This document shows, piece by piece, positions 16,793 to 34,447 of a DNA stretch of 35,556 nucleotides (positions are counted from its first letter, which is position 1; each line of letters opens with the position of its first letter). This stretch comes from an uncultured Lachnospiraceae bacterium (GTDB taxonomy: Bacteria; Bacillota_A; Clostridia; Lachnospirales; Lachnospiraceae), in contig CANOBT010000046.1 in assembly GCA_947564305.1 (NCBI GenBank), positions 1 to 35,556 on the forward strand, in the 5' to 3' direction. The notes beneath the pieces were generated by a model, which saw only the letters and a list, made by a program, of their open reading frames with translations, searched no databases and was not told where the DNA came from. Made by a program: the position numbers and the translations under genes.

Positions 16793-16803
16793 TTGTGCGT
16801 GAT

Positions 16804-17262: not shown

Positions 17263-17299
17263 ATATTTTTCCTTTCTCTTTAAAAATGTTGTCTTGACA

Positions 17300-17328: not shown

Positions 17329-17335
17329 AGCCGGC

Positions 17336-17365
17336 GTATAAAATCCGGTAAATATCCTTATACTA
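17336..17365 (+). promoter_or_regulatory. Sigma-G-like promoter of spoVAD-spoVAE
   Basis: GTATA (17336-17340), an 18-base spacer and TATACTA (17359-17365) match the sigma-G pattern with one mismatch in the -10. It is back to back with the spoVAC promoter, 7 bases apart at the -35 elements, and would replace transcription from the spoVAA promoter. Confidence 0.62.
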
Positions 17366-17498
17366 TTTTTCAAAAATCAAATATGAAAGTAAATCAAGGT
17401 TTTCCTTTTATGGAATAGGAAAAAACGAAGTTATAGACGACAAAAGGATGCTTGATTGGAAATGGGGAATTTGCGTGGAACAAAAAATGGAGAGGAAA

Positions 17499-18512
17499 AT
17501 GAACCAGACTAGGGGGGCACAGAGCATCAGCTTTGAGACAGCGCCCTATGTGCTCAGCAGCAGCAGTGTTGCGGGCAGCAAGGAGGCAGAGGGGCCTCTG
17601 GGAAAATTAATTGATATGACCAACCAGGATGATTTATTCGGGGCACAGACCTGGGAGGAAGCAGAGAGTAATATGCAGAAGGAGGCCTGCGTGCTTGCGC
17701 TTGGAAAAGCACATATAAAGCCGGAAGAAGTGCGGTTTCTCTTTGGAGGAGACCTGCTGCGCCAGGGTGTAGCCACGTCTATGGGAGTAGAATCATTACA
17801 GATTCCTTTATTCGGTCTGTATGGCGCCTGCTCCACTTCCGGGGAGGCGTTGGCGTTAAGTGCAATGAGTGTGGCGGCAGGATATGGGGACTATATGCTG
17901 GCAGTCACGTCCAGCCATTTTGGAAGCGCAGAGAAGGAATTCCGTTTTCCTCTGGGATATGCAAACCAACGCCCACTCTGCGCTCATTGGACGGTCACCG
18001 GAAGCGGCGCATTTATCGTGGGAACCGAGAAATCCCATGTGCGCATTTCTGGTGTGACAGTAGGAAAAATTGTGGATTATGGATTGAAGGATTCACAGAA
18101 TATGGGGGCCTGCATGGCTCCGGCAGCTATGGATACGATTATCCGTAATCTGAAGGATTTTGGAAGAGAAGCAGAAGATTATGACAGGATTATTACCGGC
18201 GACCTGGGATATGTAGGCCAGGATATTTTGTTTGATCTGATGCAGGAGAAAGGGTATGATATCCGTGCGAAACATATGGACTGCGGAATGGTGATCTTTG
18301 ACCAGAAAACACAGGACACACATGCCGGGGGAAGCGGGTGCGGCTGCGCAGCCGTCACCTTGTCATCCTATATTCTGCCGAAAATCCGCAAAGGAGAGTG
18401 GAAACGTGTGCTGTTTGTGCCTACGGGAGCTTTGCTTTCTACGGTGAGTTTCAATGAGGGTGCAAGTATCCCGGGAATTGCTCACGGAATTGTTCTGGAA
18501 CATGTAAATTGA
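17499..18512 (+). CDS. spoVAD: Stage V sporulation protein AD
   Basis: A 337-residue soluble thiolase-fold protein that in B. subtilis binds dipicolinic acid at the spore inner membrane. Visible landmarks are GSKEAEGPLG near the N terminus, LFGLYGACSTSGEALALSAMSVAAGYGDY in the middle and the glycine/cysteine stretch HAGGSGCGCAAV near residue 285. Three in-frame starts are possible (GTG 17475, ATG 17487, ATG 17499); GGAGAGG at 17489-17495 and family length favour 17499, though its spacing is short. It is divergent from spoVAC and followed by spoVAE after 25 bases, so AD and AE probably form one transcript. Confidence 0.93.
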   Translation: MNQTRGAQSISFETAPYVLSSSSVAGSKEAEGPLGKLIDMTNQDDLFGAQTWEEAESNMQKEACVLALGKAHIKPEEVRFLFGGDLLRQGVATSMGVESLQIPLFGLYGACSTSGEALALSAMSVAAGYGDYMLAVTSSHFGSAEKEFRFPLGYANQRPLCAHWTVTGSGAFIVGTEKSHVRISGVTVGKIVDYGLKDSQNMGACMAPAAMDTIIRNLKDFGREAEDYDRIITGDLGYVGQDILFDLMQEKGYDIRAKHMDCGMVIFDQKTQDTHAGGSGCGCAAVTLSSYILPKIRKGEWKRVLFVPTGALLSTVSFNEGASIPGIAHGIVLEHVN

Positions 18513-18537
18513 TTTTTGAATTCAGGAGGAAATGAAA

Positions 18538-18894
18538 TTGGATTATGTGAAAGCATTTTTAATCGGCGGGCTGATTTGTGCCCTGGTCCAGATTTTGCTG
18601 GACAGGACAAAATTAATGCCGGGCCGTGTCATGGTATTGTTGGTATGCAGCGGAGCAGTCTTAGGCTTCTGCAATCTTTATAAGCCGTTTCAGGATTTTG
18701 CAGGGGCAGGAGCAAGCGTTCCGCTCCTGGGATTTGGAAATGTCCTGTGGCAGGGTGTAAAAGAAGCCGTGGATAAAGGCGGGTTTCTGGGAATTTTCCA
18801 GGGAGGGTTTAAAGCGAGCGCCGTGGGAATATCGGCGGCGTTGGTATTCGGTTATCTGGCTTCCATTATCTTTGAGCCGCGGATGAAGAAATAA
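18538..18894 (+). CDS. spoVAE: Stage V sporulation protein AE
   Basis: A 118-residue membrane protein of the SpoVA complex (SpoVAE/AEB type) with three or four spans; the motif AGAGASVPLLGFGNVLWQG parallels the one in SpoVAC, to which it is related. An ATG at 18532 is only 2 bases from AGGAGG (18524-18529), too close to work well. A TTG at 18538 is 8 bases away and gives MDYVKAFLIGG, the normal family N terminus, so TTG is the preferred start. No separate terminator is evident before the next gene. Confidence 0.92.
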   Translation: MDYVKAFLIGGLICALVQILLDRTKLMPGRVMVLLVCSGAVLGFCNLYKPFQDFAGAGASVPLLGFGNVLWQGVKEAVDKGGFLGIFQGGFKASAVGISAALVFGYLASIIFEPRMKK

Positions 18895-18955: not shown

Positions 18956-18980
18956 GAAATTTTGTCCGGGACAAAATTTC
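18956..18980. promoter_or_regulatory. Perfect 25-bp palindrome upstream of the Na/Pi gene
   Basis: GAAATTTTGTCC (18956-18967), one base, GGACAAAATTTC (18969-18980): both 12-base arms match exactly. It sits 44 bases before the start codon. The one-base centre and lack of a T-run make it more like a dimeric repressor operator than a terminator. The cognate regulator is unknown. Confidence 0.7.
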
Positions 18981-19024
18981 TGCAATGTACTTCCCGGCTT
19001 ATCCGGGGCAGGAGGAGAAAGTAT

Positions 19025-20659
19025 ATGGATTACGCAGGCATTATCATCCCCTTTATCGGGGGGCTCGGCATGTTCATCTATGGTATGCAGATCATGGCAC
19101 AGGGACTTGAAAATGCAGCCGGCAGCAAAATGAAGGACATGTTGGAGGCTTTGACAAGAAACAAATTTCTGGGCGTCCTTCTGGGCGCTCTCATTACGGC
19201 TGTTATCCAGAGTTCGTCCGCTACATCCGTCATGGTGGTCGGCTTTGTGAATGCCGGTATTATGAACCTGAGCCAGGCAATGGGTGTGATTATGGGCGCC
19301 AATATTGGTACGACGGTAACCGGTTGGCTGGTATCCAGTGTGGAGTGGGCGAAGTTTTTAAGTCCGGGCAATCTGGCTCCGATTGCAATCATGCTGGGCG
19401 TTATTGTGATGCTTACAGGTACCAGACGCTCATCCAAAGATGTTTCCAGTATTATCATTGGATTTGGATTGCTGTTTGTAGGGATTACTACCATGTCATC
19501 TTCGGTTTCACCGCTGCAGGAGTCAGAAGCATTTCGCTCTGTTTTTGTGACTCTGGGACATAACCCTTTCCTCGGAATCATAGCAGGTGCGGTAGTAACG
19601 GCTGTCATCCAGAGTTCTTCGGCATCGGTAGGAATTCTGCAGAGCCTTTCCGCAGCCGGGCTGGTGCCCTTTAATGCAGCGGTCTATATTATCATGGGGC
19701 AGAATATCGGTACTTGTGTGACCGCGATCATGTCCAGTATCGGGGCAAAGAAGACGGCTAAGACGGCAGCGGTCATGCACCTTCTTTTTAATATTATTGG
19801 GACTGTAATTTTCAGTATTATAGCAATCGTATTGTTTAAGCTTGTATTCCCGACAGCGGGGACAGGTATGATTACACAGACGGAGATCAGTACGGTGCAC
19901 ACAATCTTCAATATCGGAACCACAGTTCTTCTTTTCCCGGTTTCGGATCTGATCATCAAACTGGCGAAAAAGTTAGAGAAGGAAGACGATAAAACAGAGG
20001 ACGAAAGCAGAGTGCTTCTGGATGAGCGTATGCTGGAGACGCCCGGGATTGCGGTGCAGTCTGCAGTCAGCGAGATTGCCAGAATGGGGAACATCGTGGT
20101 CAGGACTACACAGAAGGCAGAAGAAGTCATGTTTTCCAAAGATTATCAGAAAATCCTGGATATCAAGGAAGAGGAGGAAACGGTGGACAGTCTCTGCAGC
20201 GGGATTACCAACTATGTGATTAAACTAAGTTCCCTTGCTCTCAATGAGAAAGAGCATCAGCATATGGCAAGCCTGCTCCAGATTTTGTCGGATATGGAAC
20301 GAATCAGTGATTATTGTGAAAATATCTCTGAATTTGCAGAGACGCTGACAGAACGGAAGGCATCATTTACAGAAATCGGTACGGCAGAGATGAAGGAGAT
20401 GATTCAGGTCTGCTTTGACAGTTTCCGGTATGCGGTAGAGGCGTTTGCGGAAGACGACAAAGAAAAAGCTCTGAAGGTAATTGAGAAAGAGAGTCAGGCT
20501 GACGATTTGGAAATCCAGCTTCGGACGGCACATATGAAACGTCTGGCTGCCAACCAGTGTAATACGGATGCCGGAATCGTGTATCTGGATGCATTGGTAT
20601 GTCTGGAACGTATATCAGATCATTCACGTAATATTGCGGAAGAAGTACTCATGGTATAA
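19025..20659 (+). CDS. Na/phosphate cotransporter family protein with PhoU-like domain
   Basis: A 544-residue membrane protein of the NptA/PNaS family, expected to move phosphate with sodium. The inverted duplicate QSSS motifs are clear (QSSSATSVMVVGFVNAG and QSSSASVGILQSLSAAG), each with neighbouring NIGT motifs (GANIGTTVT and GQNIGTCVT). About nine or ten spans fill residues 1-320. The cytoplasmic tail (about 340-544) is PhoU-like, all helical and rich in acidic residues. The frame is open upstream to 18962, but AGGAGGAG just before ATG 19025 and the family N terminus (PFIGGLGMFIYGMQIM) decide the start. A perfect palindrome upstream is a likely operator. Some family members act as phosphate exporters, so direction is not settled. 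Confidence 0.9.
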   Translation: MDYAGIIIPFIGGLGMFIYGMQIMAQGLENAAGSKMKDMLEALTRNKFLGVLLGALITAVIQSSSATSVMVVGFVNAGIMNLSQAMGVIMGANIGTTVTGWLVSSVEWAKFLSPGNLAPIAIMLGVIVMLTGTRRSSKDVSSIIIGFGLLFVGITTMSSSVSPLQESEAFRSVFVTLGHNPFLGIIAGAVVTAVIQSSSASVGILQSLSAAGLVPFNAAVYIIMGQNIGTCVTAIMSSIGAKKTAKTAAVMHLLFNIIGTVIFSIIAIVLFKLVFPTAGTGMITQTEISTVHTIFNIGTTVLLFPVSDLIIKLAKKLEKEDDKTEDESRVLLDERMLETPGIAVQSAVSEIARMGNIVVRTTQKAEEVMFSKDYQKILDIKEEEETVDSLCSGITNYVIKLSSLALNEKEHQHMASLLQILSDMERISDYCENISEFAETLTERKASFTEIGTAEMKEMIQVCFDSFRYAVEAFAEDDKEKALKVIEKESQADDLEIQLRTAHMKRLAANQCNTDAGIVYLDALVCLERISDHSRNIAEEVLMV

Positions 20660-21081
20660 AAGGAATATAAAAGATAAGAAGTTGATGCTGAACAGCCCAA
20701 AGTTTATGGGATTTAAAGCACTGTGATTTTTGGATTTTTTATGGAACTGCCTTGTGGCCTGCTGCGGGGCAGTTTTTTGTATGGATGTATTTTTGCGTGG
20801 ATAATAAAGGTTTTTGGCTGTTTTGAAGATATTTGAACGTAGGATTTTCATGATTTTTCCTTTCAATAGAAAAGTTGGAAAATACGGATTTCTGCTTAGG
20901 AAAATTTTGCCGAATAGCCCATAATATGTATGAATAAAAGTTAGAATTCGATGCGTCATGACTTTAAAAATATGATATACTGTAACTAAGGAACAGCACG
21001 TCATCTGCTGCTATGAAAAAGCTACTCTACCGCCTGCCGTCTGCTCCGCAGATTGGCTACAAATAGAAGGAAGGAATATCC
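20660..21081. other. 422-base gap between the Na/Pi gene and the sensor kinase gene
   Basis: It contains the terminator at 20745-20778 and a candidate -10 TATACT at 20976-20981 (about 100 bases before the kinase gene) with a weak -35. A minus-strand open frame across it lacks a ribosome site and looks like AT-rich non-coding sequence. I see no RNA gene or repeat. Confidence 0.5.
20745..20778 (+). terminator. Terminator after the Na/Pi gene
   Basis: AACTGCC (20745-20751) and GGCAGTT (20768-20774) form a 7-bp stem, followed by T residues to 20778. Confidence 0.75.
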
Positions 21082-22776
21082 ATGAAAAGTAAGGTGTCCA
21101 TCAGGCTGCCGATTCGTTTTTTAGCAGTGGCTTTGATTCCGATTTTGATTTTTTTTACAATTACACAGATTTATATGACCAGAGCTGGGAAGCAGTATTT
21201 GAATGAACGCATTAACAGCAACTTAAGTATATCCAATCAGGTGTTGGATATGGTATTAGAGAAGTATGCGGGCATCCTGTATGATTTATGCACAGACCGG
21301 GATATTTTAGAGATGGTTGATTCCATCAGTGCGGCAGGAGATGTCTTTGATGAGAATATCGGAAGGCTGGGGCATGAGTTGGGTGATATATGCAATCGGC
21401 ATGAGGGAATCGAAGGGATTATGATATCCCTGGAAGATGGCAGGAATGTTTTTTATGACGGCCTGAATTCCTCGTCTGTCAGCAGTTCGTGGATAGAGGA
21501 GATGGGAATACCGAAAGTAGAAAAAGGAGATGCATATCGTGGGATTTCAGAGCCGGTCATGGACCAGGAAAGAAAAGTTTATATTTTTCAAATTGCGCGG
21601 AGTCTGAACAGTGACGGCAGCAATAGTGAGAACCAGGCTGTTGCGGCGATTAATATTAATGAGGAACAGATATGTAAAGCATTGAATTCAGGAGAAGACA
21701 GACAGAGTTACCTGTTGGATGGCAGTACTGTCCTCAGCGCCAGTGTGAAAGAAGATATTGGGCAGGATTATGGGAAACTTATGGATGTGCAGGAAAACCG
21801 GTATACTTGTTCTCCAAGCACAATGAGCGGATTTACAATTTGCAATATACAGTCTATGAAATCTTATAATCATTCTACGCGAATTCAGTACATCGGTTTA
21901 GGAATCTTTGTATTACTTTCTGTGCTCATGGTTCTGGTTCTGACATTTTCAGCGATAAAACCGTATTTAAAAACAGTGGATAATTATGTGGATGCCATGG
22001 TACGGGTAGGAAAAGGCGATTTTTCCGTACGTGCAGCAAAGCAGCGGCGGGGGCATCCTCAGATGCGCAGAATTGAAGATGGGTTTAATGATATGGTCAT
22101 ACATATCGAAAACCAGATTGAAGAAGGAAAGCAGGCCTCTTTGAAGCAGAAATATGCAGAGATGTCGGCGTTAGAGGCACAGATTACCCCACATTTTCTG
22201 TATAATACACTGGATGTGATCAACTGGAAAGCGATAGAAGATGAACAGTATGAGATTAGCGAGATGCTTGGACTTCTGGGAGACATTTTACGTTATGTTT
22301 CAAAAAATACGGGAGGCATGACGACTCTCCGTACGGAATTTGAATGGCTGGCAGATTATATCCGGCTGCAAAATGTAGAATCCGACAGGAGGACAAAGCT
22401 AGAGCTGGAGGTACCGGAGGAGATGATGGAAGTAGAAATCCATAAGCTCCTGCTGCAGCCTTTTATAGAAAATGCTTTCAAATATGCCTTTTTAAAGAAA
22501 AAGGATGATCATGTTATTATTGTAGGCGCCGGCCTGTCTGGCGGGCAGCTTCATATTACGATTGAAGATAATGGAGAAGGGATAGAGGAAAGTCTTCTTC
22601 GGAAATTGAATGACGATGCCTCGGACATGGGAGAACATGTCGGTATTGCCAATGTCCGGAAACGTCTGAAATTATACTATGGTGAGGAGGCCGTAGTATA
22701 TTTCGAGAGTGTACCGGATGATTATACGAGGATACATCTGCTTATCCCACAGTGGACAAAAGCAAACAGTAATTAA
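21082..22776 (+). CDS. Sensor histidine kinase, YesM type
   Basis: A 564-residue membrane kinase that senses an extracellular signal and phosphorylates the regulator encoded next. It has a first span near residues 12-30, an extracytoplasmic dCache-like domain (about 31-270), a second span near 272-293, a HAMP linker, the His_kinase domain with QITPHFLYNTLD (phospho-acceptor H371) and a C-terminal ATPase domain (LLLQPFIENAFKYAF, EDNGEGIEE, GIANVRKRL). This layout is typical of LytS/YesM-like kinases paired with AraC-type regulators that control sugar or envelope genes. GAAGGAAGG precedes ATG 21082. The ligand cannot be predicted. Confidence 0.93.
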   Translation: MKSKVSIRLPIRFLAVALIPILIFFTITQIYMTRAGKQYLNERINSNLSISNQVLDMVLEKYAGILYDLCTDRDILEMVDSISAAGDVFDENIGRLGHELGDICNRHEGIEGIMISLEDGRNVFYDGLNSSSVSSSWIEEMGIPKVEKGDAYRGISEPVMDQERKVYIFQIARSLNSDGSNSENQAVAAININEEQICKALNSGEDRQSYLLDGSTVLSASVKEDIGQDYGKLMDVQENRYTCSPSTMSGFTICNIQSMKSYNHSTRIQYIGLGIFVLLSVLMVLVLTFSAIKPYLKTVDNYVDAMVRVGKGDFSVRAAKQRRGHPQMRRIEDGFNDMVIHIENQIEEGKQASLKQKYAEMSALEAQITPHFLYNTLDVINWKAIEDEQYEISEMLGLLGDILRYVSKNTGGMTTLRTEFEWLADYIRLQNVESDRRTKLELEVPEEMMEVEIHKLLLQPFIENAFKYAFLKKKDDHVIIVGAGLSGGQLHITIEDNGEGIEESLLRKLNDDASDMGEHVGIANVRKRLKLYYGEEAVVYFESVPDDYTRIHLLIPQWTKANSN

Positions 22777-22822
22777 AAGGTATTAAGAGTGCGCAGACAC
22801 AGGCTGTGCCATTTTGTGAAAA

Positions 22823-22842
22823 CCGGATATGCGGGTATCCGG
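22823..22842 (+). other. Intercistronic hairpin between sensor and regulator genes
   Basis: CCGGATA (22823-22829) and TATCCGG (22836-22842) form a perfect 7-bp stem with a 6-base loop, with no T-run after it. It lies 30 bases before the regulator start and may influence translation or RNA stability. Confidence 0.4.
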
Positions 22843-22872
22843 CTTTATGCGCATGCGGGTAAGGAGGGAAAC

Positions 22873-24399
22873 ATGCGGATTGTAATAGTAGAGGATGAGG
22901 TACACATTCGGACAGGGATGGTGCGGCTTCTTCATCAGATCGACCCAAAGCATGAAGTGGTAGGCAAAGCAGATAATGGACAGACCGGATTTGAGATAAT
23001 CTGCCGGGAAAGACCCGATCTTATCATTGTTGATGTCAGGATGCCGGATATGGATGGGTTGACGATGATCCGGAAACTGAGGGAGGAAAAGGTTGTGTGC
23101 CAGATTCTGGTCCTTTCGGCATATTCGGAGTTCGAATATGCCAGAGAGGCTATCGAACTTGGTATTGTAAGCTATCTTCTGAAGCCGTTGAAGATTGGAG
23201 AGTTTAAAAAAGCCCTGGAGCAGGTGGAAGAAAAAATCCTGCAGGAAAAACATAAGGAGTATGGATTTTCACTGGATCATATTTTTCTTGGCTGCATTAA
23301 TGACCAATTGGAGCCGGACGAGCTTTTTAATGTCCAGACTTATGAAAAATATGGATTCACAGTAGAGCAGCCGGCAGAGTTATTTCTTGTATGGCTTGGA
23401 GACGGATATGAGGCACAATGTGCACGTGCAAGGGAGCTTTTGAAGCATGTGGCGGCACACACGGTAAAGTTTTCAGCTCATATCCGGGAAATGAAAAGCG
23501 GGCATATGCTGTTGATGATCTTATATCGGCAAAGGACAGGAGAAACGCAGCGAGCCTTTTTTGAAAAATCAGTCGTTCCTATGTTGTGCAGCAATCTGGA
23601 GAAGCCTGTTATTTGCGTGTGGAGGTCTATGAAGCGCCTTTTAGATGCATCGAAAGTGCTTCGGGAAATGCACAAAGAGTTGGAATGGAACCTTTGGTTT
23701 CCGGACAGAGTATTGATTCACAGGGCTGAGATCCAGAGACAGCAGATTGTGCCGGTTAAGTATCCGTTGGAACTGGAAGACAGGGCAAAATCCGCATTGC
23801 GGGAGAAAAATTGGAAAGATGTGATTACATGCTATGAGAGACTATATGCCTATCTGGTCGAGGAGCCGCATCTTCCTTCTCAGATAAAGGAAAATCTGAT
23901 CCGGTTCAACTGGAGCCTGATCAGTATTCAAAAAGAAAAGAAAGAAGAATCAGAACTGCGGATTCAGAATATTTTCCAGAAGATTGCAGCGGCGTTCAGT
24001 TGGGTGCAGATTGATGCTGCTATGAGAGAATTTATGAAGATTCTTGATTATTCTGAGCCGGAGCCGGAGGAGCAGTCGGCCAGTGATATGGTTCAGAAAG
24101 CAAAAGTACTGATTCGTAAATATTATAACCAGGGAATCACACTGGAAGAGACGGCAAGGAAGCTGTTTGTATCGGAAGAATACCTGAGCGCCCAGTTTAA
24201 AAAAGAGACTGGCAGTACATTTACGGAAACCGTGCGCAGATACCGGATTGAAAAGGTAAAAGAACTGTTGGTAGAAACCACTTTGAAAATGAATCAGATA
24301 GCAGAATTGGCAGGATATTCTGATCCTAAATATATGAGCAAAGTATTTAAAGAAGAGGTCGGGATGCTTCCCACGGAATATCGGAAAGAAGCAGACTAG
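22873..24399 (+). CDS. Response regulator with AraC-type DNA-binding domain, YesN type
   Basis: A 508-residue cytoplasmic regulator. The receiver domain (1-120) has phospho-acceptor D54 in IVDVRMPD, the acidic EDE near the start and YLLKPLK with the conserved lysine. A long linker of unknown fold (about 125-400) follows, then two helix-turn-helix motifs (about 405-505; TLEETARKLFVSEEYLSAQFKKETG and QIAELAGYSDPKYMSKVFKEEVGMLPTEYRK). The frame opens at 22789, but AAGGAGGG right before ATG 22873 and the receiver N terminus (MRIVIVEDE) decide the start. It is co-transcribed with the kinase gene upstream; no target operon is adjacent on the same strand. Confidence 0.94.
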   Translation: MRIVIVEDEVHIRTGMVRLLHQIDPKHEVVGKADNGQTGFEIICRERPDLIIVDVRMPDMDGLTMIRKLREEKVVCQILVLSAYSEFEYAREAIELGIVSYLLKPLKIGEFKKALEQVEEKILQEKHKEYGFSLDHIFLGCINDQLEPDELFNVQTYEKYGFTVEQPAELFLVWLGDGYEAQCARARELLKHVAAHTVKFSAHIREMKSGHMLLMILYRQRTGETQRAFFEKSVVPMLCSNLEKPVICVWRSMKRLLDASKVLREMHKELEWNLWFPDRVLIHRAEIQRQQIVPVKYPLELEDRAKSALREKNWKDVITCYERLYAYLVEEPHLPSQIKENLIRFNWSLISIQKEKKEESELRIQNIFQKIAAAFSWVQIDAAMREFMKILDYSEPEPEEQSASDMVQKAKVLIRKYYNQGITLEETARKLFVSEEYLSAQFKKETGSTFTETVRRYRIEKVKELLVETTLKMNQIAELAGYSDPKYMSKVFKEEVGMLPTEYRKEAD

Positions 24400-25149: not shown

Positions 25150-25187
25150 AATATCGGAAAATAGATTCGAAAATGGGGGTGGCGTGT

Positions 25188-25637
25188 GTGGACAATCTGA
25201 CACCGGAACAGCGCCGTAAGAATATGCAGCATATCAGGGCAAAGGACACTGCAATCGAGGTAAAGTTCCGGAAGGCTCTGTGGCACAAGGGATACCGCTA
25301 TCGGAAAAATTATAAAAATCTTCCGGGGAAGCCGGATATTGTCCTTACAAAGCAGCGGATTGCAATTTTTTGTGACGGCGAGTTCTTCCATGGAAAGGAC
25401 TGGGAGGTTCTGAAACCGCGGTTAGAAAAGTCAAACAACGGGGAGTACTGGCAGAAGAAGATTTCCCGGAACATGGAGCGGGACGATGAAATCAACAAGC
25501 AGCTTTTGTTTCTGGGATGGACGGTAATCCGTTTCTGGGGCAGGGATATCATGAAAAACACAGATGAATGCATCCGGGTAGTGGAAGAGATTATTTTTGA
25601 AAACAAGATTACAGATATTGATTTTGATGAACAATGA
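25188..25637 (+). CDS. Vsr-family (very short patch repair) endonuclease, zinc-less variant
   Basis: A 149-residue endonuclease of the Vsr family, which nicks 5' of T in T:G mismatches arising from deaminated 5-methylcytosine. Catalytic positions are kept: D50 in KPDIVL (E. coli D51) and H68 in GEFFHG (E. coli H69). The family N terminus (DNLTPEQRRKNMQHIRAKDT) and the LGWTVIRFWG stretch are clear. Aligned by eye, the E. coli zinc ligands C66, H71, C73 and C117 are E65, K70, W72 and R, so the structural zinc site is absent. GTG 25188, after GGGGGTGG, starts the usual N terminus; an ATG at 25173 would add five residues. Its partners are two cytosine methyltransferases downstream, consistent with mutation avoidance at their sites. 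Confidence 0.88.
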   Translation: MDNLTPEQRRKNMQHIRAKDTAIEVKFRKALWHKGYRYRKNYKNLPGKPDIVLTKQRIAIFCDGEFFHGKDWEVLKPRLEKSNNGEYWQKKISRNMERDDEINKQLLFLGWTVIRFWGRDIMKNTDECIRVVEEIIFENKITDIDFDEQ

Positions 25638-25698
25638 AGCTATAATGTCTAAATGCTGATGTTTTATTGAAAGATTATGTTCAATTGTTAATACCTTA

Positions 25699-25726
25699 TT
25701 GAACTAAATATATTATTTTGTAATGT
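25699..25726 (+). promoter_or_regulatory. Candidate promoter of the first methyltransferase gene, with ATTGAA repeats
   Basis: TTGAAC (25699-25704), a 16-base spacer and TAATGT (25721-25726), followed 17 bases later by the start codon. ATTGAA occurs at 25666-25671, inverted at 25680-25685 and again at 25698-25703, overlapping the -35, which may mark an operator. Confidence 0.4.
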
Positions 25727-25743
25727 GTATAACAGGAGCTGCC

Positions 25744-26817
25744 ATGAATGCAATAGATTTATTTGCCGGGTGCGGTGGGATGTCCAGGGGATTTATGGAT
25801 GCAGGTTTTGACATTATTGTCGGTGTTGACAATGATCAGGCTGCATTGAATACGTTTGCTCTGAACCATAATGGTGCTGTGGCTATGAATGCAGATTTAT
25901 CGAAACAGGAAACATTTGATGCTATAAGGGAAACAGCCGGAGACCGGGAGATTGACGTCATTATAGCCGGACCGCCCTGTCAGGGTTTTTCATTGACAGG
26001 TCCAAGAAATTTTGACGATCCGAGAAATAAACTGTATCTGGCGGTGATAGAAATGGTGCGGCAGTATCAGCCGAAAGGATTTGTGATTGAAAATGTTCCG
26101 GGAATGGCTGCTATGTATGACGGACAGGTGAAAGAAGAAATACTCAGGCGGTTCAGAAAAATGGGATATAACGTTGAGTGCAGGATTCTTTGTGCAGCGG
26201 ATTATGGGATTCCGCAGATGAGGAAAAGGCTGATTTTCATGGGGATAAGAAAGGACATCGGATACCCGGTATTTCCCGATCCTGTTCTTGATGAAGAACA
26301 TTATGTGACATGCAGAGAGGCGTTGGATGATCTTCCGTCCAGAGAAAATGAATTAGGACAGGAAGAGGATGTATATATACAGGAACCACGGACCGATTAT
26401 CAGAGAAAAATGAGGGGGAATTGCCAGATTCTCCATAACCATGTGGCGACGAACCATAAGCAGTTTGTGAAAGATACGATTGCACTGGTTCCTGAAGGCG
26501 GAAATTACAAAGACCTTCCCGAGGGCTGGGGGGAGAGCAGACGGTTTCATGAAGCATGGACACGATACGATGGAAACAAACCGTCAAAAACAATAGATAC
26601 CGGACACAGGAATCATTTTCATTACCAGTACAACAGAGTGCCGACAATCAGGGAAAATGCCAGGCTCCAGTCTTTCCCTGATGATTTTGTGTTTACCGGA
26701 ACAAAAACCCAGCAGAACCGTCAGGTTGGAAATGCAGTTCCGCCAATATTGGGACAGGTTATCGGTTCTGCTCTGCTTGGAATCATAGGGGATGGAAATG
26801 GCGAAGAAAATAATTAA
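25744..26817 (+). CDS. DNA (cytosine-5) methyltransferase 1
   Basis: A 357-residue C5-cytosine methyltransferase using S-adenosylmethionine. Motif I is DLFAGCGGMSRGF right at the N terminus, motif IV GPPCQGFS with catalytic C79, motif VI ENVPG, motif VIII QMRKRLIFMG, motif IX PTIRENARLQSFPDDF and motif X QVGNAVPP. The target recognition region between VIII and IX (about 180-290) is short and carries no recognisable specificity. The start at 25744 follows AGGAG; the frame is open back to 25723. The 3' end overlaps the second methyltransferase by 20 bases. The recognised site is unknown. A linked Vsr suggests that its product is a T:G hot spot. Confidence 0.96.
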   Translation: MNAIDLFAGCGGMSRGFMDAGFDIIVGVDNDQAALNTFALNHNGAVAMNADLSKQETFDAIRETAGDREIDVIIAGPPCQGFSLTGPRNFDDPRNKLYLAVIEMVRQYQPKGFVIENVPGMAAMYDGQVKEEILRRFRKMGYNVECRILCAADYGIPQMRKRLIFMGIRKDIGYPVFPDPVLDEEHYVTCREALDDLPSRENELGQEEDVYIQEPRTDYQRKMRGNCQILHNHVATNHKQFVKDTIALVPEGGNYKDLPEGWGESRRFHEAWTRYDGNKPSKTIDTGHRNHFHYQYNRVPTIRENARLQSFPDDFVFTGTKTQQNRQVGNAVPPILGQVIGSALLGIIGDGNGEENN

Positions 26818-28036
26818 ATCAATAGATTTGTTCGCGGGTTGCGGCGGATTGATGGACGGATTTTTACAATCCGGCCATTACAAAACGGTTGCCGCCGTAG
26901 AATGGGAAAAACCTGCGTGTGAAAATCTGCGTGAGCGGCTTCGGACAAAGTGGAACCGGAGCGATGCAGATCAGATTGTCCTTCAGTTTGACATACAAAG
27001 AACAGATGAGCTGTTTGAGGGGTGGAAGGGCGACCCTGTTTACGGAACATCAAAAGGATTAGATTCTTTTGTAGCGAAAGCGAAAGGAATAGATGTTATT
27101 ATCGGCGGTCCGCCCTGTCAGGCGTACTCTATTGCGGGAAGGGTGCGCGACGAAAACGGCATGCGGGATGACTACCGAAACTACCTGTTTGAGAGTTATC
27201 TGAAGGTGGTGGAAAAGTATAAGCCAAAGGCATTCATATTCGAGAATGTTCCAGGCATCCTGACAGCCCGGCCCGGAGACAGAAAAATCATCGAAATCAT
27301 CCAGGAGAGCTTTGAGAAGGCAGGATACTGTGTATTTTCTGATATGAGCAAGGCGGTTATTGACTTTACGGAATACGGTGTGCCGCAGAAACGCAGCCGG
27401 ATAATCATTTTCGGAGTAAGTGAAGAAGCATACGGGAAGGATACCGCGTTAGAGATGGCGGCAAGGTTTTATCGGGAATTCCTTCCGGCATATAAGACGG
27501 ACAAGATGACCGTGCGCGAAGCAATCGGAGACCTTCCCAAACTTCATCCATTGGAAAAAGAGATGAAATATCAGGGCAAAAGACTTTCGCACGAACTTCC
27601 TGACCCTTTTGTGGAAAACCACATTGCAAGGTGGCAGAACGAGCGGGATATCGGGATATTCAAACTGCTGACAGAAGACATTGAATCAGGAAGGAATCAG
27701 TATGTATCAGCGGAAGCACTGAAAAAACTATACACGGAAAAGACCGGAAGAACATCGAATGTTCACAAATACTATGTGATACGGTGGGATGAGCAGAGTA
27801 ATTTGATTCCGGCACATCTGTTTAAGGACGGACTGAGACATATTCATCCGGATTCAAAACAACTCAGAACCATCACAGTCAGAGAAGCTGCAAGACTTCA
27901 GACATTTGATGATGATTACATTTTTTACGGCAGCAATGTAGATACATATAAGATGATTGGCAATGCCGTACCGCCGAAATTTGCCAGATGCTGTGCAAAT
28001 GCGGTGTATGATCTTTTGAAAAAATATGGTTTCTAG
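26798..28036 (+). CDS. DNA (cytosine-5) methyltransferase 2
   Basis: A 412-residue C5-cytosine methyltransferase with motif I DLFAGCGGLMDGF, motif IV GGPPCQAYS with catalytic C107, motif VI ENVPGI, motif VIII VPQKRSRIIIFG, motif IX ITVREAARLQTFDDDY and motif X MIGNAVPPKFA. Compared with its neighbour it has an extra segment of about 30 residues between motifs I and IV and a longer, different target recognition region, so the two are not recent duplicates and probably read different strands or sites. ATG 26798 follows AGGGGA and overlaps the first gene, giving translational coupling. Two C5 methyltransferases side by side are typical for asymmetric recognition sequences. No restriction enzyme follows. 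Confidence 0.96.
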   Translation: MAKKIIKSIDLFAGCGGLMDGFLQSGHYKTVAAVEWEKPACENLRERLRTKWNRSDADQIVLQFDIQRTDELFEGWKGDPVYGTSKGLDSFVAKAKGIDVIIGGPPCQAYSIAGRVRDENGMRDDYRNYLFESYLKVVEKYKPKAFIFENVPGILTARPGDRKIIEIIQESFEKAGYCVFSDMSKAVIDFTEYGVPQKRSRIIIFGVSEEAYGKDTALEMAARFYREFLPAYKTDKMTVREAIGDLPKLHPLEKEMKYQGKRLSHELPDPFVENHIARWQNERDIGIFKLLTEDIESGRNQYVSAEALKKLYTEKTGRTSNVHKYYVIRWDEQSNLIPAHLFKDGLRHIHPDSKQLRTITVREAARLQTFDDDYIFYGSNVDTYKMIGNAVPPKFARCCANAVYDLLKKYGF

Positions 28037-28172: not shown

Positions 28173-29177
28173 TTACTGGAAGCGTTCACCCATAACATGC
28201 TGACGGAAATTAGCCAGAACTTCCAGTTGTCCATGCTGGCTTAACTCCAGATCCAGAAAAGGATTAAGTGCTGACTCAAGGTCTTTTCTCAGGCCTTCTC
28301 CCTGCTCTGAATAGAGCCACTGGTACAGCATTTTACATGCGGCATGTATATTGGTTCTGTAGGAAGAGAACATGGGGCTCAGCTCTGCGGCTATATTGCT
28401 TACTTCCAGGTCATAGATACGGATCTGCGGATAAAGGAAGGCGTGATAATATTGTTTCCACATTTTGATACTCGAGGAATCTTTCAGAAAAGCGGGCAGC
28501 CGTTGCTTTAGCTCTTCTGTATAAGCGACACATCCGTCCGAATCCAGATTTGCGATATAGGCCAGATGACTTTCCTGTTTTCGGAACAGAGTGGAGAGAT
28601 CCCGCTCATTAAGTGTATGGAAAAACTGATTCAGCTTGCGGCAGTCTTCATTTTCCGGAAGGCTGGTTATATGGTTTATTTTATTCCAGAGAAATTCCTG
28701 ATAATCCGTAAGTGTCTCGGGAAGAAAAACAGACCATAAAAAACGGTTGATCTGTGTATTGTCATACTGATCATAGGATTCAGTAACTTTATCAGAGGCA
28801 GGAGACGGGATATCCGCGCCTGCACTAAGATAGAAGAGTTCTGGGATATCCGGCTTTGTGGAGAGATGTTCCTGAATGGAACTTAATCCTTGGAGAATCC
28901 TGTTCAGGCGAATCTGTTCCTGCTTCAATTCCTTGATATGCTGGTTAAGAAAATAACCTGCGGATGCCGGGTCGCTGAAAATCGTGCGTATCATGGGAAT
29001 GGACATACCTGCGTTTCGCAGCGTGCGGATGAGAAGGAGTTTTTGACAGTCTTTTTCTGTAAACTCATAATATCCGTTGGGACTGCTCATAGATGGAAAG
29101 AGGAGCTTTTCCTGAATATAAAAATGAACATTTCGTTTGGTAAATCCTGTCTTTTTGCATACTTCCTGAATTTTCAT
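28173..29177 (-). CDS. MerR-type transcription regulator with large C-terminal domain
   Basis: A 334-residue regulator. The N-terminal MerR winged helix is clear: MKIQEVCKKTGFTKRNVHFYIQEKLL, then YYEFTEKDCQKLLLIRTLRNAGMSIPMIRTIF (about residues 1-68). A helix that would pair the dimer follows (75-110). The remaining 220 residues are helical and of no family I recognise; they probably bind a small-molecule effector. AAAGGGA precedes its ATG (29175-29177). It is divergent from the fusion enzyme gene. Its own promoter region carries a perfect inverted repeat, and the divergent promoter has the 20-bp spacer expected for MerR activation, so it probably controls both itself and the enzyme. Confidence 0.85.
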   Translation of the reverse strand: MKIQEVCKKTGFTKRNVHFYIQEKLLFPSMSSPNGYYEFTEKDCQKLLLIRTLRNAGMSIPMIRTIFSDPASAGYFLNQHIKELKQEQIRLNRILQGLSSIQEHLSTKPDIPELFYLSAGADIPSPASDKVTESYDQYDNTQINRFLWSVFLPETLTDYQEFLWNKINHITSLPENEDCRKLNQFFHTLNERDLSTLFRKQESHLAYIANLDSDGCVAYTEELKQRLPAFLKDSSSIKMWKQYYHAFLYPQIRIYDLEVSNIAAELSPMFSSYRTNIHAACKMLYQWLYSEQGEGLRKDLESALNPFLDLELSQHGQLEVLANFRQHVMGERFQ

Positions 29178-29256: not shown

Positions 29257-29285
29257 ATTATAACATATTTTTTCAAAAACGTACA
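29257..29285 (-). promoter_or_regulatory. Promoter of the MerR-type regulator gene
   Basis: On the minus strand, a consensus -10 TATAAT (29262-29257) with a weak -35 TGTACG (29285-29280) after 17 bases. The -35 is overlapped by the inverted repeat at 29281-29296, which suggests autoregulation. Confidence 0.5.
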
Positions 29286-29296
29286 GCCGACTGTAC
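29281..29296. promoter_or_regulatory. Inverted repeat GTACAG-N4-CTGTAC, probable operator
   Basis: A perfect 6-bp inverted repeat with a 4-base centre (CCGA), placed on the -35 of the regulator gene and about 105 bases upstream of the fusion-enzyme promoter. The likely binder is the adjacent MerR-type regulator (inference). The 311-base divergent region holds nothing else beyond the two promoters. Confidence 0.55.
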
Positions 29297-29403: not shown

Positions 29404-29435
29404 CTTGACATCCGCTTTTATGTACGCTGCATAAT
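29404..29435 (+). promoter_or_regulatory. MerR-type long-spacer promoter of the fusion enzyme gene
   Basis: TTGACA (29404-29409) and CATAAT (29430-29435) are separated by 20 bases rather than 17. MerR-family activators work on promoters with 19-20-bp spacers. A dyad TTATG (29418-29422) with CATAA (29430-29434) lies within and over the -10. The start codon is 53 bases downstream. Confidence 0.6.
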
Positions 29436-29488: not shown

Positions 29489-32400
29489 ATGTTTGACAAA
29501 TTATTTTCAACGATCAAGATCAAGGATCTTGAATTGAAAAACCGGGTGATCCTTCCTGCAATGGGAACGAAATTTTCAGGGAAGGGCAGTTCGGTTACCC
29601 AGAAACTGATTGATTACCATGTTGCGAGAGCAAAAGGAGGATGCGGACTGAATATCGTGGAGGTCTGCAGTGTACATACGCCCAGCGCTCCAAGGAGATT
29701 TTTATCGATCAGTGAGGATGAATATATCCCCGGACTGAAAAAACTGACAGACGCGATTCACGCGGAAGGCGGAAAAGCAGGGCTGCAGCTCTGGCAGGGA
29801 GGACTTGCCGTATCTTCCGACAAGGCAGCACAGGTACTGCTTCCGGCGCCGATGCCGGTGAGCGCGGAAGTGACATTGCCGGGGATCACTCTGGAGACGA
29901 TGCAGGAGGTCATTGAATGCTTTGGAAAGGCAGCGGCACGTGCTGTTCAGGCGGGATTTGACTGTATCGAGTTCCATTGCGCGCATAATTACCTTCCTCA
30001 TTCCTTCTTATCAGGAGGAATCAACCACAGAACGGATGAGTACGGAGGCAGCTTTGAGAACCGTGCTAAATTTCCGCTTGCGTGCATTCGTTCCATACGT
30101 GAGAATATGCCGGAAGGAATGCCTCTGTTTATGAGAATTGATGCTCATGACGATTATCTGGATGGCGGACTGACAATAGAAGAAGTGATCCGGTTCTGTA
30201 AACTTGCCGGGGAAGCCGGTGTTGATGTGTTGGATATTTCACGTGGAAATATCCTGACTGCGGGATTGAAATTCGAAGTTCCACCGATCGACCTGCCGAG
30301 AGGGTTTAATGTAGACAATGCGGCGAAGATCCGCAGGGAAACCGGAATGGTGACGATTGGAGTAGGGCGGATCAATACGGCGGAGCAGGCAGAAGAGATT
30401 CTGGAAGCGGATAAAGTGGACATGGTTGTCATGGGACGCGCCCAACTGGTTGACCCTGAGTTCTGTAATAAATCGAAAGCCGGAAAGACAGAAGAGATTG
30501 ATTATTGTGTTGGCTGTAACCAGGGCTGTTATGATGGTTTTGAAAATATGGATATGGAATATATCACCTGCCTTCGAAATCCGGCTTTGGGATGGGAAGC
30601 GGAATGCAGGCTGGAACCGGCAGAGAAAGCAGAAAAAGTGCTGATCGCGGGCGGCGGCATCGGAGGATTAGAAGCAGCAATCATTTTACAGCAGAGAGGA
30701 CATCACCCGATTCTCTGCGAGGCATCAGACAGGCTGGGCGGCCAGTTCCTGACAGCGGGAGAGGCCCCAAGAAAAGCGGAGATGAAAAACGCGGTCATCG
30801 CCATGGGAGAAAAGGCGAAAAGACTGGGCGTGGAAATCCGGATGAATACGAAAGTAACACCGGAACTGATCCGGGAGCTCAAGCCTCATACAGTGATGAA
30901 CGCAATCGGCGCGGAACCGGTCATTCCGGATATTCCGGGAAAAGACAAAGCATTTGTGGTGAATTCACATGATGTATTGAATGGAAAGGCAGAAGCCGCA
31001 GGGAATGTAGTCGTAATCGGCGGCGGTATGGTCGGTATGGAGGCTGCGGAGTATCTGGCGGAAAAAGGCGCTAAAGTCACTGTTCTGGAGATGCTGGACG
31101 CAATCTGCGCGGATATGGGAAGCACCCGGAAAATCTGTGTTGGAGAGAGTATCTATGCGGCAGGTATCATTCCGGTGACCTCTCTGACGGTGACAGAGAT
31201 CAGAGATGGGGCGGTTGCAGGAATCAAAGATGGACAGGAACAAGAATTTCCATGTGATTCGGTAGTGATTGCAGTAGGCTCACGAAGCCGGGACGGACAT
31301 TTACTGGAAGAGGAATGCTATCAGCAGGGTATCGGTTATTTTGAAATCGGAGACGCGGCAATGGCAAGGCGTGCCATCAATGCCACCAGAGAAGCTCTGG
31401 ACGCGGCAATGACATTTGACAAGGAGGACGTACACCGGGACCGCTCCAGACCGAGGAAGGTCGTGTTCGCAACAGGAACAACAGGAATGATGGGCGGCCA
31501 GACCCTGAAACAGCTTCTTGCAAGGCCAAATCGTTTCCGCGTACGTGCTTTGGTAAGGCCATCAGAGAAGAATAAGGCATTGATGAAAAAATATGCCTGT
31601 CCGACACTGGAAGTTGTCTGGGGAGACATGGCAGATTATGAGACTGTGAAGAAATGTGTGGACGGAAGCGATTATGTTCTTCATATCGGCGCAATGGTTT
31701 CTCCCGCGGCGGATATGTATCCGGAGGAAACGCTGAGAACGAATATCGGCTCGACGTTAAATATTATTAAGGCGATTAAGGAACAGCCGGATCCGGATAA
31801 GGTTCATTTTGCGTATGTAGGAACCGTAGCAATGACCGGAAGCCGTCTGGAACCGGTACATTTCGGGCGCGTCGGTGATCCGATGAATCCGTCTATTCAT
31901 GATTATTACGCAATGTCGAAAGTATTTTCAGAGGCGGCGTTGTTTGACAGCGGATTAAAGTATTGGGTTTCTATCCGGCAGACAGGACAGCATCCAAGCG
32001 CGGAGACTGCGGCACAGGAACCGATCATGTTCCATCAGCCGCCGAACAATGTGTTGGAATGGAGCACCCAGATTGAATCTGGTATCTGTATGGCGAATCT
32101 CTGCGAAGACTGGGTTCCGGAATCATTTTGGAGAAAGGCTTACAATCTGAGCAGCGGCAAAGCCTATCGTAAGACAACCTGGGAATTCATGAATCTGAAT
32201 CTGGAACCTATGGGATTTTGTTTTGAAGATGTATATCCACCAGAAATGATGGCGCGTTTCAATTTCCATGGACAATATTATACAGATGCAGATGTACTGG
32301 AAAATTATCTGCATTTCCGCTGTATTCCTGGTGAAGAGTACTGGGCAGGTGTCAAAGAAGAGATGGAACGTATGATGAAAAATCCGATGATCGCCGCGAT

Positions 32401-32953
32401 GATGCCAAATCTGGAGGCGATGAAGGCTTCCAATGACCAGCTTGCAAGAAAAGAAATGGGACCGATTTGGGCGGAAGAAAATAATAGAACAGAGTGGATA
32501 CAGGCATTTTACGGTTCACTGGAAGAGAAGCATAAACTGATCGGTACAGAATATGAACTGCATCGTCCGAGTGAGGAAGAAACATTCCTGAATCATGGAT
32601 ATGATGAAGAAAAGGGATTGGAGAATCTGGACGTGGAGGATCTTCAGAAAGCGGCAGAATTCCGCGGAGGTGAATATCTGGAAGAGGATGTAAAGGATAT
32701 TCATACGCCGGTAAAATGGAAATGTGCGTTCGGCCATGAGTTTAATCTGTCTGTGAACGGAGCTCTCCATGGAGGACACTGGTGTCCGGAGTGTATGAAG
32801 AACAGTTGGGCATACCCGAAGATCGCGAGGAAAAATCCATTTTACGCCCAGGTATGGGATCCGCAGCATAGCCCGGAGGAAACTTATGAGATTCCGATGA
32901 GGTTTAGTGCATATGAAATACGGGAAGAAATTAAAAAGGAATTAGACTTATAA
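29489..32953 (+). CDS. Fusion: OYE/dienoyl-CoA-reductase-type flavoprotein + extended SDR + zinc-ribbon-like domain
   Basis: An 1154-residue fusion. Residues 1-335 form an old-yellow-enzyme TIM barrel (NRVILPAMGTKF; INHRTDEYGGSFENRAKF). C340, C343, C347 and C361 match the 4Fe-4S motif of 2,4-dienoyl-CoA reductases and BaiCD-like enzymes. A FAD/NAD module follows, with GGGIGG (388-393) and GGGMVG (511-516). From residue 657 an extended SDR domain begins: ATGTTGMMGG (661-670), catalytic pair Y807/K811. The C-terminal part ends in a CxxxH...CxxC ribbon (C1079, H1083, C1099, C1102). The first half should reduce conjugated C=C bonds by NAD(P)H through FAD, Fe-S and FMN; the second should reduce or oxidise a carbonyl/hydroxyl. 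AAGGAG precedes ATG 29489. Substrate unknown. No frame break or stop separates the parts. Confidence 0.9.
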   Translation: MFDKLFSTIKIKDLELKNRVILPAMGTKFSGKGSSVTQKLIDYHVARAKGGCGLNIVEVCSVHTPSAPRRFLSISEDEYIPGLKKLTDAIHAEGGKAGLQLWQGGLAVSSDKAAQVLLPAPMPVSAEVTLPGITLETMQEVIECFGKAAARAVQAGFDCIEFHCAHNYLPHSFLSGGINHRTDEYGGSFENRAKFPLACIRSIRENMPEGMPLFMRIDAHDDYLDGGLTIEEVIRFCKLAGEAGVDVLDISRGNILTAGLKFEVPPIDLPRGFNVDNAAKIRRETGMVTIGVGRINTAEQAEEILEADKVDMVVMGRAQLVDPEFCNKSKAGKTEEIDYCVGCNQGCYDGFENMDMEYITCLRNPALGWEAECRLEPAEKAEKVLIAGGGIGGLEAAIILQQRGHHPILCEASDRLGGQFLTAGEAPRKAEMKNAVIAMGEKAKRLGVEIRMNTKVTPELIRELKPHTVMNAIGAEPVIPDIPGKDKAFVVNSHDVLNGKAEAAGNVVVIGGGMVGMEAAEYLAEKGAKVTVLEMLDAICADMGSTRKICVGESIYAAGIIPVTSLTVTEIRDGAVAGIKDGQEQEFPCDSVVIAVGSRSRDGHLLEEECYQQGIGYFEIGDAAMARRAINATREALDAAMTFDKEDVHRDRSRPRKVVFATGTTGMMGGQTLKQLLARPNRFRVRALVRPSEKNKALMKKYACPTLEVVWGDMADYETVKKCVDGSDYVLHIGAMVSPAADMYPEETLRTNIGSTLNIIKAIKEQPDPDKVHFAYVGTVAMTGSRLEPVHFGRVGDPMNPSIHDYYAMSKVFSEAALFDSGLKYWVSIRQTGQHPSAETAAQEPIMFHQPPNNVLEWSTQIESGICMANLCEDWVPESFWRKAYNLSSGKAYRKTTWEFMNLNLEPMGFCFEDVYPPEMMARFNFHGQYYTDADVLENYLHFRCIPGEEYWAGVKEEMERMMKNPMIAAMMPNLEAMKASNDQLARKEMGPIWAEENNRTEWIQAFYGSLEEKHKLIGTEYELHRPSEEETFLNHGYDEEKGLENLDVEDLQKAAEFRGGEYLEEDVKDIHTPVKWKCAFGHEFNLSVNGALHGGHWCPECMKNSWAYPKIARKNPFYAQVWDPQHSPEETYEIPMRFSAYEIREEIKKELDL

Positions 32954-33220: not shown

Positions 33221-34447
33221 ATGGATAGAAAAAAATATATTTTAAAAAATGTTTATGATGTGTCCTTTCTGGCGGTACGGATCCTGGCTGATAATGGGAA
33301 AATCATCATGATGCCATATGACGGATTTGAAAAAAAGGATCCTATATGCTGCAATTCAGATCTCAGAAAAGCGGTTTTTGAATGCGGAAAGAGAAATGCC
33401 TTCAAATATGCCGCATATAATGATAATGGATATTTCTATTGTATTTTCTGCAAAAAGGATCAGAATGTGATATGGGGGCCGTTTGTTTTGGAAGTACATT
33501 CAGAGCTGCAGGAGAGAATGTACCTTGCCAGAAACCAGGTGAAGCAGAAGTCTATATATATTCCTCTGCTGAATGTGGATTATATCAAAAAGCGTATTTC
33601 TTTTATCCACGGGCTCTTGTTTGAGGAGTACTTTGATAGTCAGGAGCTTTTTGAGGGCGATTGGCCGGAGGAAAAGTCGGAGGGGCTCCATGCGAGCTTG
33701 TCGGAATACATTCTGGAAAATGCAGAGCGGGAGAGGGAGCACTTTTCCTTTCAGAGGGAACAGGAATTTTTTGAGTATTTATTGAACAATAAAATAGACA
33801 TTGAGGAGGTATTCCAAAAAGCTCCGGGGGAGCTGGATGATTTCAGGGATCTGTATGGACGGCAGGGACTTATTGCAGAGTCCCAGAAAAAAAGTATAGA
33901 ATATTCGGCTGTAATCTTCATTGCGCTTCTGACAAGGCATGTGATCACGGCTGGAGTCAGCGAGACAGAGGCATATAGATTAAGTGATGTATCTTTGCAG
34001 GAACTTTCCAGAGCAGAAGATATCATAGACATCGAGCGTATTTGCAGAAACAGTATCTGGCAGTTTATCAGTATGGCCAGAGAGTACAGGGAAACAGACA
34101 AGGGAGAGTCTGCATATATTGTGCAAAGCAAGGATTATATCGCAAAGCATATTTTTGAAAAAATATCGCTTCAGGATATCGCGGATGAAGTCGGGGTTCA
34201 TCCGGCTTATTTGTCGCGCCTGTTTTCAGAGCAGACAGGAGTTGGCATACTGCATTACATTCTTCAGGAGAAAATTCGTATCTCCTGTAATCTTCTAAAA
34301 TATTCCGGAAAACCAATTGCGGTTATTGCGGAATATGTCAATTTGTCCCCCCAAAGTTATTTTTCAAAGGTATTTAAAAAAGTCATGGATGAGACTCCTG
34401 CGCAGTATCGGAAAAATCATCTGAATAAAAATTTTATAAAATCGTAA
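33221..34447 (+). CDS. AraC family transcription regulator
   Basis: A 408-residue cytoplasmic regulator. The C-terminal 100 residues hold two helix-turn-helix motifs (ISLQDIADEVGVHPAYLSRLFSEQTG and PIAVIAEYVNLSPQSYFSKVFKKVMDETPAQYRK). The N-terminal part (about 1-140) looks like a small-ligand or PAS-like sensing domain with several cysteines (PICCNSD, YCIFCKK), and a helical segment joins them. I do not recognise the sensor family. TTGGAGG stands before ATG 33221. A GPH-type symporter gene follows after 87 bases on the same strand, so it probably activates that transporter; this arrangement is common for sugar and glycoside uptake loci in Lachnospiraceae. There is no receiver domain, so it is not a two-component regulator. 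Confidence 0.88.
   Translation: MDRKKYILKNVYDVSFLAVRILADNGKIIMMPYDGFEKKDPICCNSDLRKAVFECGKRNAFKYAAYNDNGYFYCIFCKKDQNVIWGPFVLEVHSELQERMYLARNQVKQKSIYIPLLNVDYIKKRISFIHGLLFEEYFDSQELFEGDWPEEKSEGLHASLSEYILENAEREREHFSFQREQEFFEYLLNNKIDIEEVFQKAPGELDDFRDLYGRQGLIAESQKKSIEYSAVIFIALLTRHVITAGVSETEAYRLSDVSLQELSRAEDIIDIERICRNSIWQFISMAREYRETDKGESAYIVQSKDYIAKHIFEKISLQDIADEVGVHPAYLSRLFSEQTGVGILHYILQEKIRISCNLLKYSGKPIAVIAEYVNLSPQSYFSKVFKKVMDETPAQYRKNHLNKNFIKS

Follow-up and report, generated by a model that had tools for sequence, protein, structure and literature searches.

A steroid 5β-reductase/3β-hydroxysteroid dehydrogenase-isomerase fusion predicted in an uncultured Lachnospiraceae bacterium

The stretch of DNA analyzed here, referred to as the window, comprises 35,556 nucleotides of an uncultured Lachnospiraceae bacterium (GenBank assembly GCA_947564305.1, contig CANOBT010000046.1, positions 1 to 35,556 of the forward strand). 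It contains a single uninterrupted open reading frame (ORF) with an ATG start, encoding a 1154-residue protein in which a flavoprotein unit of the Old Yellow Enzyme (OYE) type is followed by an extended short-chain dehydrogenase/reductase (SDR) unit, and this protein is very likely a bifunctional steroid enzyme of the mf2052 type (Table 1). A fusion of this kind was already described in 2025, and the window gene is a further member: Arp et al. found 3β-hydroxysteroid dehydrogenase/Δ5-4 isomerase (3β-HSDH/I) C-terminally fused to steroid 5β-reductase in 61 of 257 homologues, and expressed in E. coli the fused proteins mf2052 (Mediterraneibacter faecis JCM15917) and fp1951 (Floccifex porci), both of which converted pregnenolone to progesterone, 5β-dihydroprogesterone, and epipregnanolone (PMC12238238). 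According to the same source, the separate SDR dw0523 took pregnenolone to progesterone only, and also 5β-dihydroprogesterone to epipregnanolone.

Table 1 Features of the fused gene and its upstream region (positions in the window)
Feature	Position	Strand	Details and basis
Fused 5β-reductase/3β-HSDH-isomerase gene (predicted)	29489..32953	+	1154 residues; ORF, Pfam, NCBIfam, homologue searches
OYE (FMN) domain, residues 4-334	29498..30490	+	Pfam Oxidored_FMN; Asn167, Tyr168, Ser172, Asn254
Fe-S cysteines 340, 343, 347, 361	30506..30571	+	Alignment
FAD/NAD(P)H domain, residues 383-605	30635..31303	+	Pfam Pyr_redox_2
Extended SDR core, residues ~655-968	31451..32392	+	Thr779, Tyr807, Lys811
C-terminal extension of SDR unit, residues 969-1154	32393..32950	+	HGYD 1036-1039
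Treble-clef-like metal site (putative)	32723..32794	+	C1079, H1083, C1099, C1102, with GHW 1096-1098
Divergent MerR-family regulator	28173..29177	-	334 residues; Pfam; C-terminal part without convincing family
Promoter-like TTGACA-N19-CATAAT before fusion gene	29405..29435	+	Intergenic alignment
Dyad GTACAG-N4-CTGTAC, candidate operator	29281..29296	.	Single copy in window

Results

Intactness and distribution of the fused gene

The fusion gene is confirmed as real, intact, and conserved. When residues 645-1154 were used as the query, 198 proteins were found, and among the matches listed 116 of 120 are 1100-1210 residues long, that is, of full fusion length, which rules out an assembly artefact or a frameshift joining two genes. 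The reading of one in-frame gene rather than two, made in an earlier note on this DNA, is thereby upheld; the same note had named separate halves in all close relatives as the finding that would overturn it, and the opposite was found, fused frames recurring across named genomes. Among the 14 loci located in these genomes, 11 are matched over 1124 or more of the 1154 residues, and a twelfth long match (locus L010) covers residues 1-1096 at a contig end; the hosts include [Ruminococcus] faecis JCM 15917, Coprococcus comes, several Mediterraneibacter metagenome-assembled genomes (MAGs), and a Butyrivibrio MAG. In samples of 299 genomes, in which the best few candidates per genome were scored and the counts are lower bounds, the SDR unit was matched at E 1e-60 in at least 11 genomes (family of JCM 15917; 4 of 11 in frames of at least 1156 residues), and the NCBIfam model for BaiCD (NF041087) was matched over its cut-off in at least 13 (5 of 14 matches in frames of at least 1156 residues). 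The fusion thus occurs widely among gut Lachnospiraceae but is far from universal.

Damaged copies were also seen. A second copy in JCM 15917 (contig C10, 14169-17078) is broken, being matched in several pieces with a stop codon inside the last. At L013:9662-10660 (Mediterraneibacter agrestimuris), a match to residues 223-334 of the MerR-type protein runs directly into one to fusion residues 935-1154, which looks like a deletion of the promoter region together with most of the fusion gene.

Domain organization and conserved residues

The N-terminal unit of about 640 residues, with its OYE, iron-sulfur (Fe-S), and flavin adenine dinucleotide (FAD) parts, is complete, as the earlier note had supposed: the Pfam domains are all present, and residues 2-642 match the NF041087 model end to end. 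Its Asn167, Tyr168, Ser172, and Asn254 correspond to N166, Y167, S171, and N253 of ci2350 (the window numbering being one higher), which is the active-site set of the mf2052 type. Conservation was followed in an alignment, A1, that combines the window protein with proteins within length limits, namely 50 of the 114 fused ones, 40 of the 87 stand-alone SDRs, and 35 of the 105 stand-alone OYEs. Ser172 is present in all 50 fused rows; the four Fe-S cysteines, three within CVGCNQGC starting at residue 340 and the fourth at 361, are Cys in 50/50 fused and 35/35 stand-alone OYE rows, and coordinate what we take to be a 4Fe-4S cluster.

The in-frame continuation into an extended SDR, also part of the earlier note, holds equally well, with TGTTGMMG at 662 and YAMSK at 807 representing the intact TGxxGxxG and YxxxK motifs, a Pfam Epimerase match over residues 662-820, and a Rossmann fold predicted in the AlphaFold model (predicted local distance difference test score 93.2 for the SDR module, and 92.1 with a predicted template modelling score of 0.86 for the full-length protein). 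The SDR half scores 38.3 bits on Pfam 3Beta_HSD (PF01073; cut-off 22), a family that matches at E 0.01 all 88 members of a second alignment, A2, consisting of the window protein and all 87 stand-alone SDR proteins within length limits. A profile search of PDB sequences gave five chains at E 1e-8, all of sugar-nucleotide dehydratase types and confined to the first ~118 positions. Tyr807 and Lys811 are invariant (50/50 fused, 40/40 stand-alone SDR rows), and Thr779 is found in 49/50 and 39/40, respectively, with Ser in the other two. The C-terminal joining of a PF01073-like SDR to an OYE/Fe-S/FAD unit is the architecture of the 5β-reductase-3β-HSDH/I fusions. The protein had been called three-part on account of a terminal CxxxH...CxxC domain; the motif is present, but this end belongs to the SDR unit, so that the protein is better regarded as two-part.

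Relationship to mf2052 and predicted reactions

The closest functional reference is the gene of [Ruminococcus] faecis JCM 15917 (locus L001), 80% identical to the window protein over residues 1-1154. Since the genome of this strain has a single intact fusion frame (on contig C6) beside the broken copy on C10, the intact frame is very probably mf2052, as judged from the strain name. In the orthologs that were assayed, the ene-reductase step is preceded by one reaction of the SDR half (pregnenolone to progesterone, by oxidation and Δ5-4 isomerization) and followed by another (5β-dihydroprogesterone to epipregnanolone) (PMC12238238). The proposal of the earlier note, two consecutive reductions of one substrate, thus stands as far as it pairs an ene-reductase with a carbonyl-active SDR of steroid type, but has to be amended in that the SDR also acts ahead of the ene-reductase; 3-oxo-Δ4 steroids, one of the candidate classes put forward there, agree with the substrates reported for the fused orthologs in that source.

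For the species of the window, we infer the substrate, the electron route, the zinc, the regulation, and a role as an electron sink as follows. The SDR unit (~510 residues) would first oxidize the 3β-hydroxyl of a Δ5 steroid such as pregnenolone with NAD+, using Tyr807, Lys811, and Thr779, and would then shift the double bond to Δ4. In the OYE/Fe-S/FAD unit, by analogy to 2,4-dienoyl-CoA reductase, NAD(P)H would supply electrons that reach flavin mononucleotide (FMN) by way of FAD and the 4Fe-4S cluster, and the Δ4 bond would be reduced to the 5β product with a proton supplied by Tyr168. The SDR unit would lastly reduce the 3-ketone back to the 3β-alcohol; in net terms, one NAD(P)H would be spent per molecule, and the pathway may act as a small electron sink. 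A structural zinc is predicted to hold the C-terminal extension, and the divergent MerR-type protein probably activates the fusion gene.

It is conceivable, though rather unlikely, that the physiological substrate is a sterol, a plant steroid, or another enone class, and that pregnenolone turnover is a side activity. The names Paenibacillus and Clostridium are found on stand-alone relatives of both halves, and Neobacillus also on those of the SDR half; SpiR, which shares 39.5% identity with dw0523, has a preference for cholesterol (PMC13079761), and phytosterols were raised by Arp et al. themselves (PMC12238238). However, fused forms with named sources are for the most part from Lachnospiraceae of gut-type samples, and pregnenolone is a substrate of those fused enzymes that were assayed (PMC12238238).

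The putative C-terminal metal site

The zinc-ribbon-like end, set apart in the earlier note as an unexplained part of the nucleic-acid type, is conserved together with the SDR, including in stand-alone SDR relatives, and a nucleic-acid role is therefore rejected. The putative ligands are spaced as C1079-x3-H1083-x15-C1099-x2-C1102. Among the 231 of 238 proteins scored (seven low-scoring ones having been dropped), C,H,C,C is found in 214, one or more ligands are absent from 17, and C,C,C,C occurs in none. A further 69 loci (family of genome G528) give the same picture, with C,H,C,C in 55, C,H,C,D in two, three or four ligands lacking in 12, and C,C,C,C in none; these are 29 loci (L073-L101) and 40 others, out of 79 candidate places, from which L033 and G487 (already seen as L033 and L036) and eight others were omitted. 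The SDR triad of Thr or Ser, Tyr, and Lys is kept in all 69, and the segment beside the metal site reads GHW, GYW, GYF, or GFW. Such joint loss of the ligands from proteins with an intact triad speaks for a structural role of the metal and against a catalytic one.

A Cys3His ligand set is characteristic of zinc and not of rubredoxin iron, and a structural zinc that holds the C-terminal extension is the most likely occupant. Two points weigh against zinc. The treble-clef family DUF4379 (PF14311) is matched only below its gathering cut-off of 24.5 bits (18.4 for the window protein, 20.0 for the SDR module alone; 17/88 relatives at E 0.01), and SpiR, compared here by its published description, may be a genuine Cys4 variant. 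In SpiR (April 2026), four cysteines reported as conserved, and as tetrahedrally arranged in an AlphaFold model, were read as a rubredoxin-like Fe(Cys)4, and zinc was considered unlikely (PMC13079761). For the present family such a centre, perhaps with a redox role, is improbable, as the second ligand is His in the window protein, in the 214 proteins, and in the 55 loci with C,H,C,C, and as the 12 loci lacking three or four ligands nevertheless keep the triad. SpiR itself (WP_242941742.1) was sought through genome searches and not identified, and the Cys4 motif is in none of the 231 proteins and 69 loci. The Cys3His ligands thus appear to fit structural zinc better than the proposed Fe(Cys)4.

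Ligand loss with retained surroundings and triad was seen in the stand-alone SDR relatives L104, L105, L115-L120, L126, L128, L131, and L133. In addition, the relatives L034-L036, likewise stand-alone, lack three or four ligands and retain the surrounding sequence.

The BaiCD label

Position 171 is Ser in the steroid-hormone clade of these reductases and mainly Glu in the bile-acid clade, and position 166 also separates the two (PMC12238238). As a control, we used locus L071 of another sampled genome, which is a bai operon because it encodes BaiB (958 bits; cut-off 650) and BaiCD (912 bits) together with, below the curated cut-offs, CoA-transferase-like, MFS-transporter-like, and second OYE proteins. 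Its BaiCD (L053 = L071:7502-9424) has Ser166 and Glu171, reading S-Y-E-N versus N-Y-S-N in the window protein, to which it is 45% identical. A further protein, at L068, scores 805 bits, just below the BaiCD cut-off, and has Thr at 166 and Glu at 171. In L051 and L052, both over the cut-off, position 171 is Val and Ala, so that this site is not strictly two-valued.

Several points tell against the assignment to the mf2052 type. The function of the window protein is predicted from sequence and from assayed orthologs; the assays of the fused enzymes used whole E. coli cells rather than purified protein (PMC12238238); and the equation of L001 with mf2052 depends on the strain name and on the sole intact fusion found there. 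The window protein matches the BaiCD model (residues 2-642) with 1100 bits against a cut-off of 825, higher than the 912 bits of the bai-operon protein itself. The diagnostic Asn167 is replaced by Thr in the M. faecis gene and in 10 of the 50 fused rows, which leaves Ser172 as the only discriminating residue.

The fact that a steroid-type half outscores a bai-operon protein on the NCBIfam model means, however, that the database name is not to be taken as the function, and for the window protein the BaiCD label looks misleading. A true bile-acid 3-oxo-Δ4 reductase with an attached hydroxysteroid dehydrogenase, acting on oxidized bile-acid intermediates, is highly improbable despite the score and the limited but detectable progesterone reduction by C. 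scindens BaiCD, whose specificity overlaps (PMC12238238), for Ser172 replaces Glu here as in all fused rows, and no bai-type genes were seen among the 25 ORFs of the window scanned with Pfam (of 56 mechanical ORFs; the scope being the window, not the whole genome). Bile acids, another candidate class of the earlier note, are disfavoured on the same grounds. Identity with BaiO, a predicted 61-kDa flavin enzyme encoded beside baiN (PMC9645264), was considered and rejected.

Upstream region and neighbouring genes

The divergent MerR-type protein has relatives at the same place in nine of the 12 long-fusion loci (L001-L008 and L011; 28-48% identity), and none beside the fusion in L009, L010, and L012. 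Its ~220 C-terminal residues have no convincing family match and are a candidate ligand domain. The intergenic region was aligned for the window and the nine loci with a full MerR gene, leaving out L009, L010, L012, L013 (truncated), and L014 (stand-alone SDR). A TTGAC box is present, and the best -10 match lies at a spacing of 19 in 10/10 regions, tied with 17 in L001 and L005, as read without a shuffle control. A spacer of 19 or 20 bp between the -35 and -10 elements is a hallmark of MerR-activated promoters, and the sequence is accordingly a candidate for a MerR-regulated promoter. The window has a single copy of the dyad, which is absent from all 100 shuffles, and similar dyads under a loose pattern were found in six of the nine other regions; a terminator scan, whose yield of such sites is at chance level, also reports the 29281-29296 dyad as a terminator-like hairpin on the - strand. 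Adjacency of 5β-reductases to MerR, AraC, and AcrR regulators has been reported, and the 19-bp-spacer promoter may be a detail additional to what is described there (PMC12238238). The AraC gene downstream in the window (33221-34447) has no fixed place across the compared loci.

Farther upstream, the window carries a sporulation cluster in which STAS, anti-sigma-type ATPase, and sigma factor genes precede spoVA genes (14018-18894). Next come a Na/Pi cotransporter with a PhoU domain and, after it, a histidine kinase and an AraC-type response regulator (18962-24399), and then a Vsr endonuclease gene ahead of two C5-cytosine DNA methyltransferase genes that overlap each other (25173-28036).

Origin of the fusion

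Quick trees without bootstrap were built from the window protein, one in three of the fused proteins, and a subset of those that stand alone. The SDR tree, with 93 rows, needs two label changes for the fused proteins, compatible with one origin. In the OYE tree (88 rows), a supported branch has the fused proteins on one of its sides, interspersed with 12 stand-alone proteins, and six label changes are needed, at least five of them forced by well-supported branches. The simplest reading would be a single fusion event and several later losses of the SDR half, with gene fragments among the nested rows being indistinguishable from such losses.

Discussion

Taking the enzyme together with its upstream region, we arrive at a more speculative and rather unlikely reading, an inducible steroid-hydrogenation switch, in which the 334-residue MerR-type protein would bind a steroid directly and untwist the 19-bp-spacer promoter, and ketone intermediates might pass between the SDR and OYE active sites of a polypeptide held together by a structural Cys3His zinc domain, for which published work on this enzyme family proposes a rubredoxin-like iron site. 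The gene is ordinary as a discovery, and is useful for testing the metal claim and for naming. As a gut-bacterial gene it is tied to host steroid metabolism, and it illustrates that the database name BaiCD may wrongly present steroid-hormone reductases as enzymes of bile-acid metabolism. The Cys3His pattern, together with ligand-less relatives whose triad is intact, offers a cheap test of the published iron-site claim in this SDR family, and the conserved MerR-type promoter offers a route to asking which steroid these bacteria sense.

The window protein is worth comparing with several known systems. It shares with BaiCD (NF041087) the end-to-end model match of residues 2-642, and differs in having Ser172 instead of Glu, in the attached SDR unit, and in a neighbourhood in which no bai-type genes were seen among the scanned window ORFs. 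Its N-terminal part also matches 2,4-dienoyl-CoA reductase (1PS9) over residues 3-542 and NCR (6QKG) over residues 1-634, with presumably the same cofactor layout in all three, whereas both of these enzymes belong to another substrate class and are without an SDR unit. SpiR, a Δ5-4 isomerase/3-keto reductase, resembles the C-terminal half in its relationship to the stand-alone 3β-HSDH/I dw0523, its Thr-Tyr-Lys triad, and its metal-type C-terminal domain, but by its description is stand-alone, prefers cholesterol, and has four Cys instead of Cys3His (PMC13079761). In mf2052, finally, residue 167 is Thr (JCM 15917 gene) rather than Asn, and the AraC gene of the window has no relative within 10 kb on either side (E 1e-10); the two proteins have the same two-unit architecture in common, with 80% identity between the genes and 48% between their divergent MerR neighbours.

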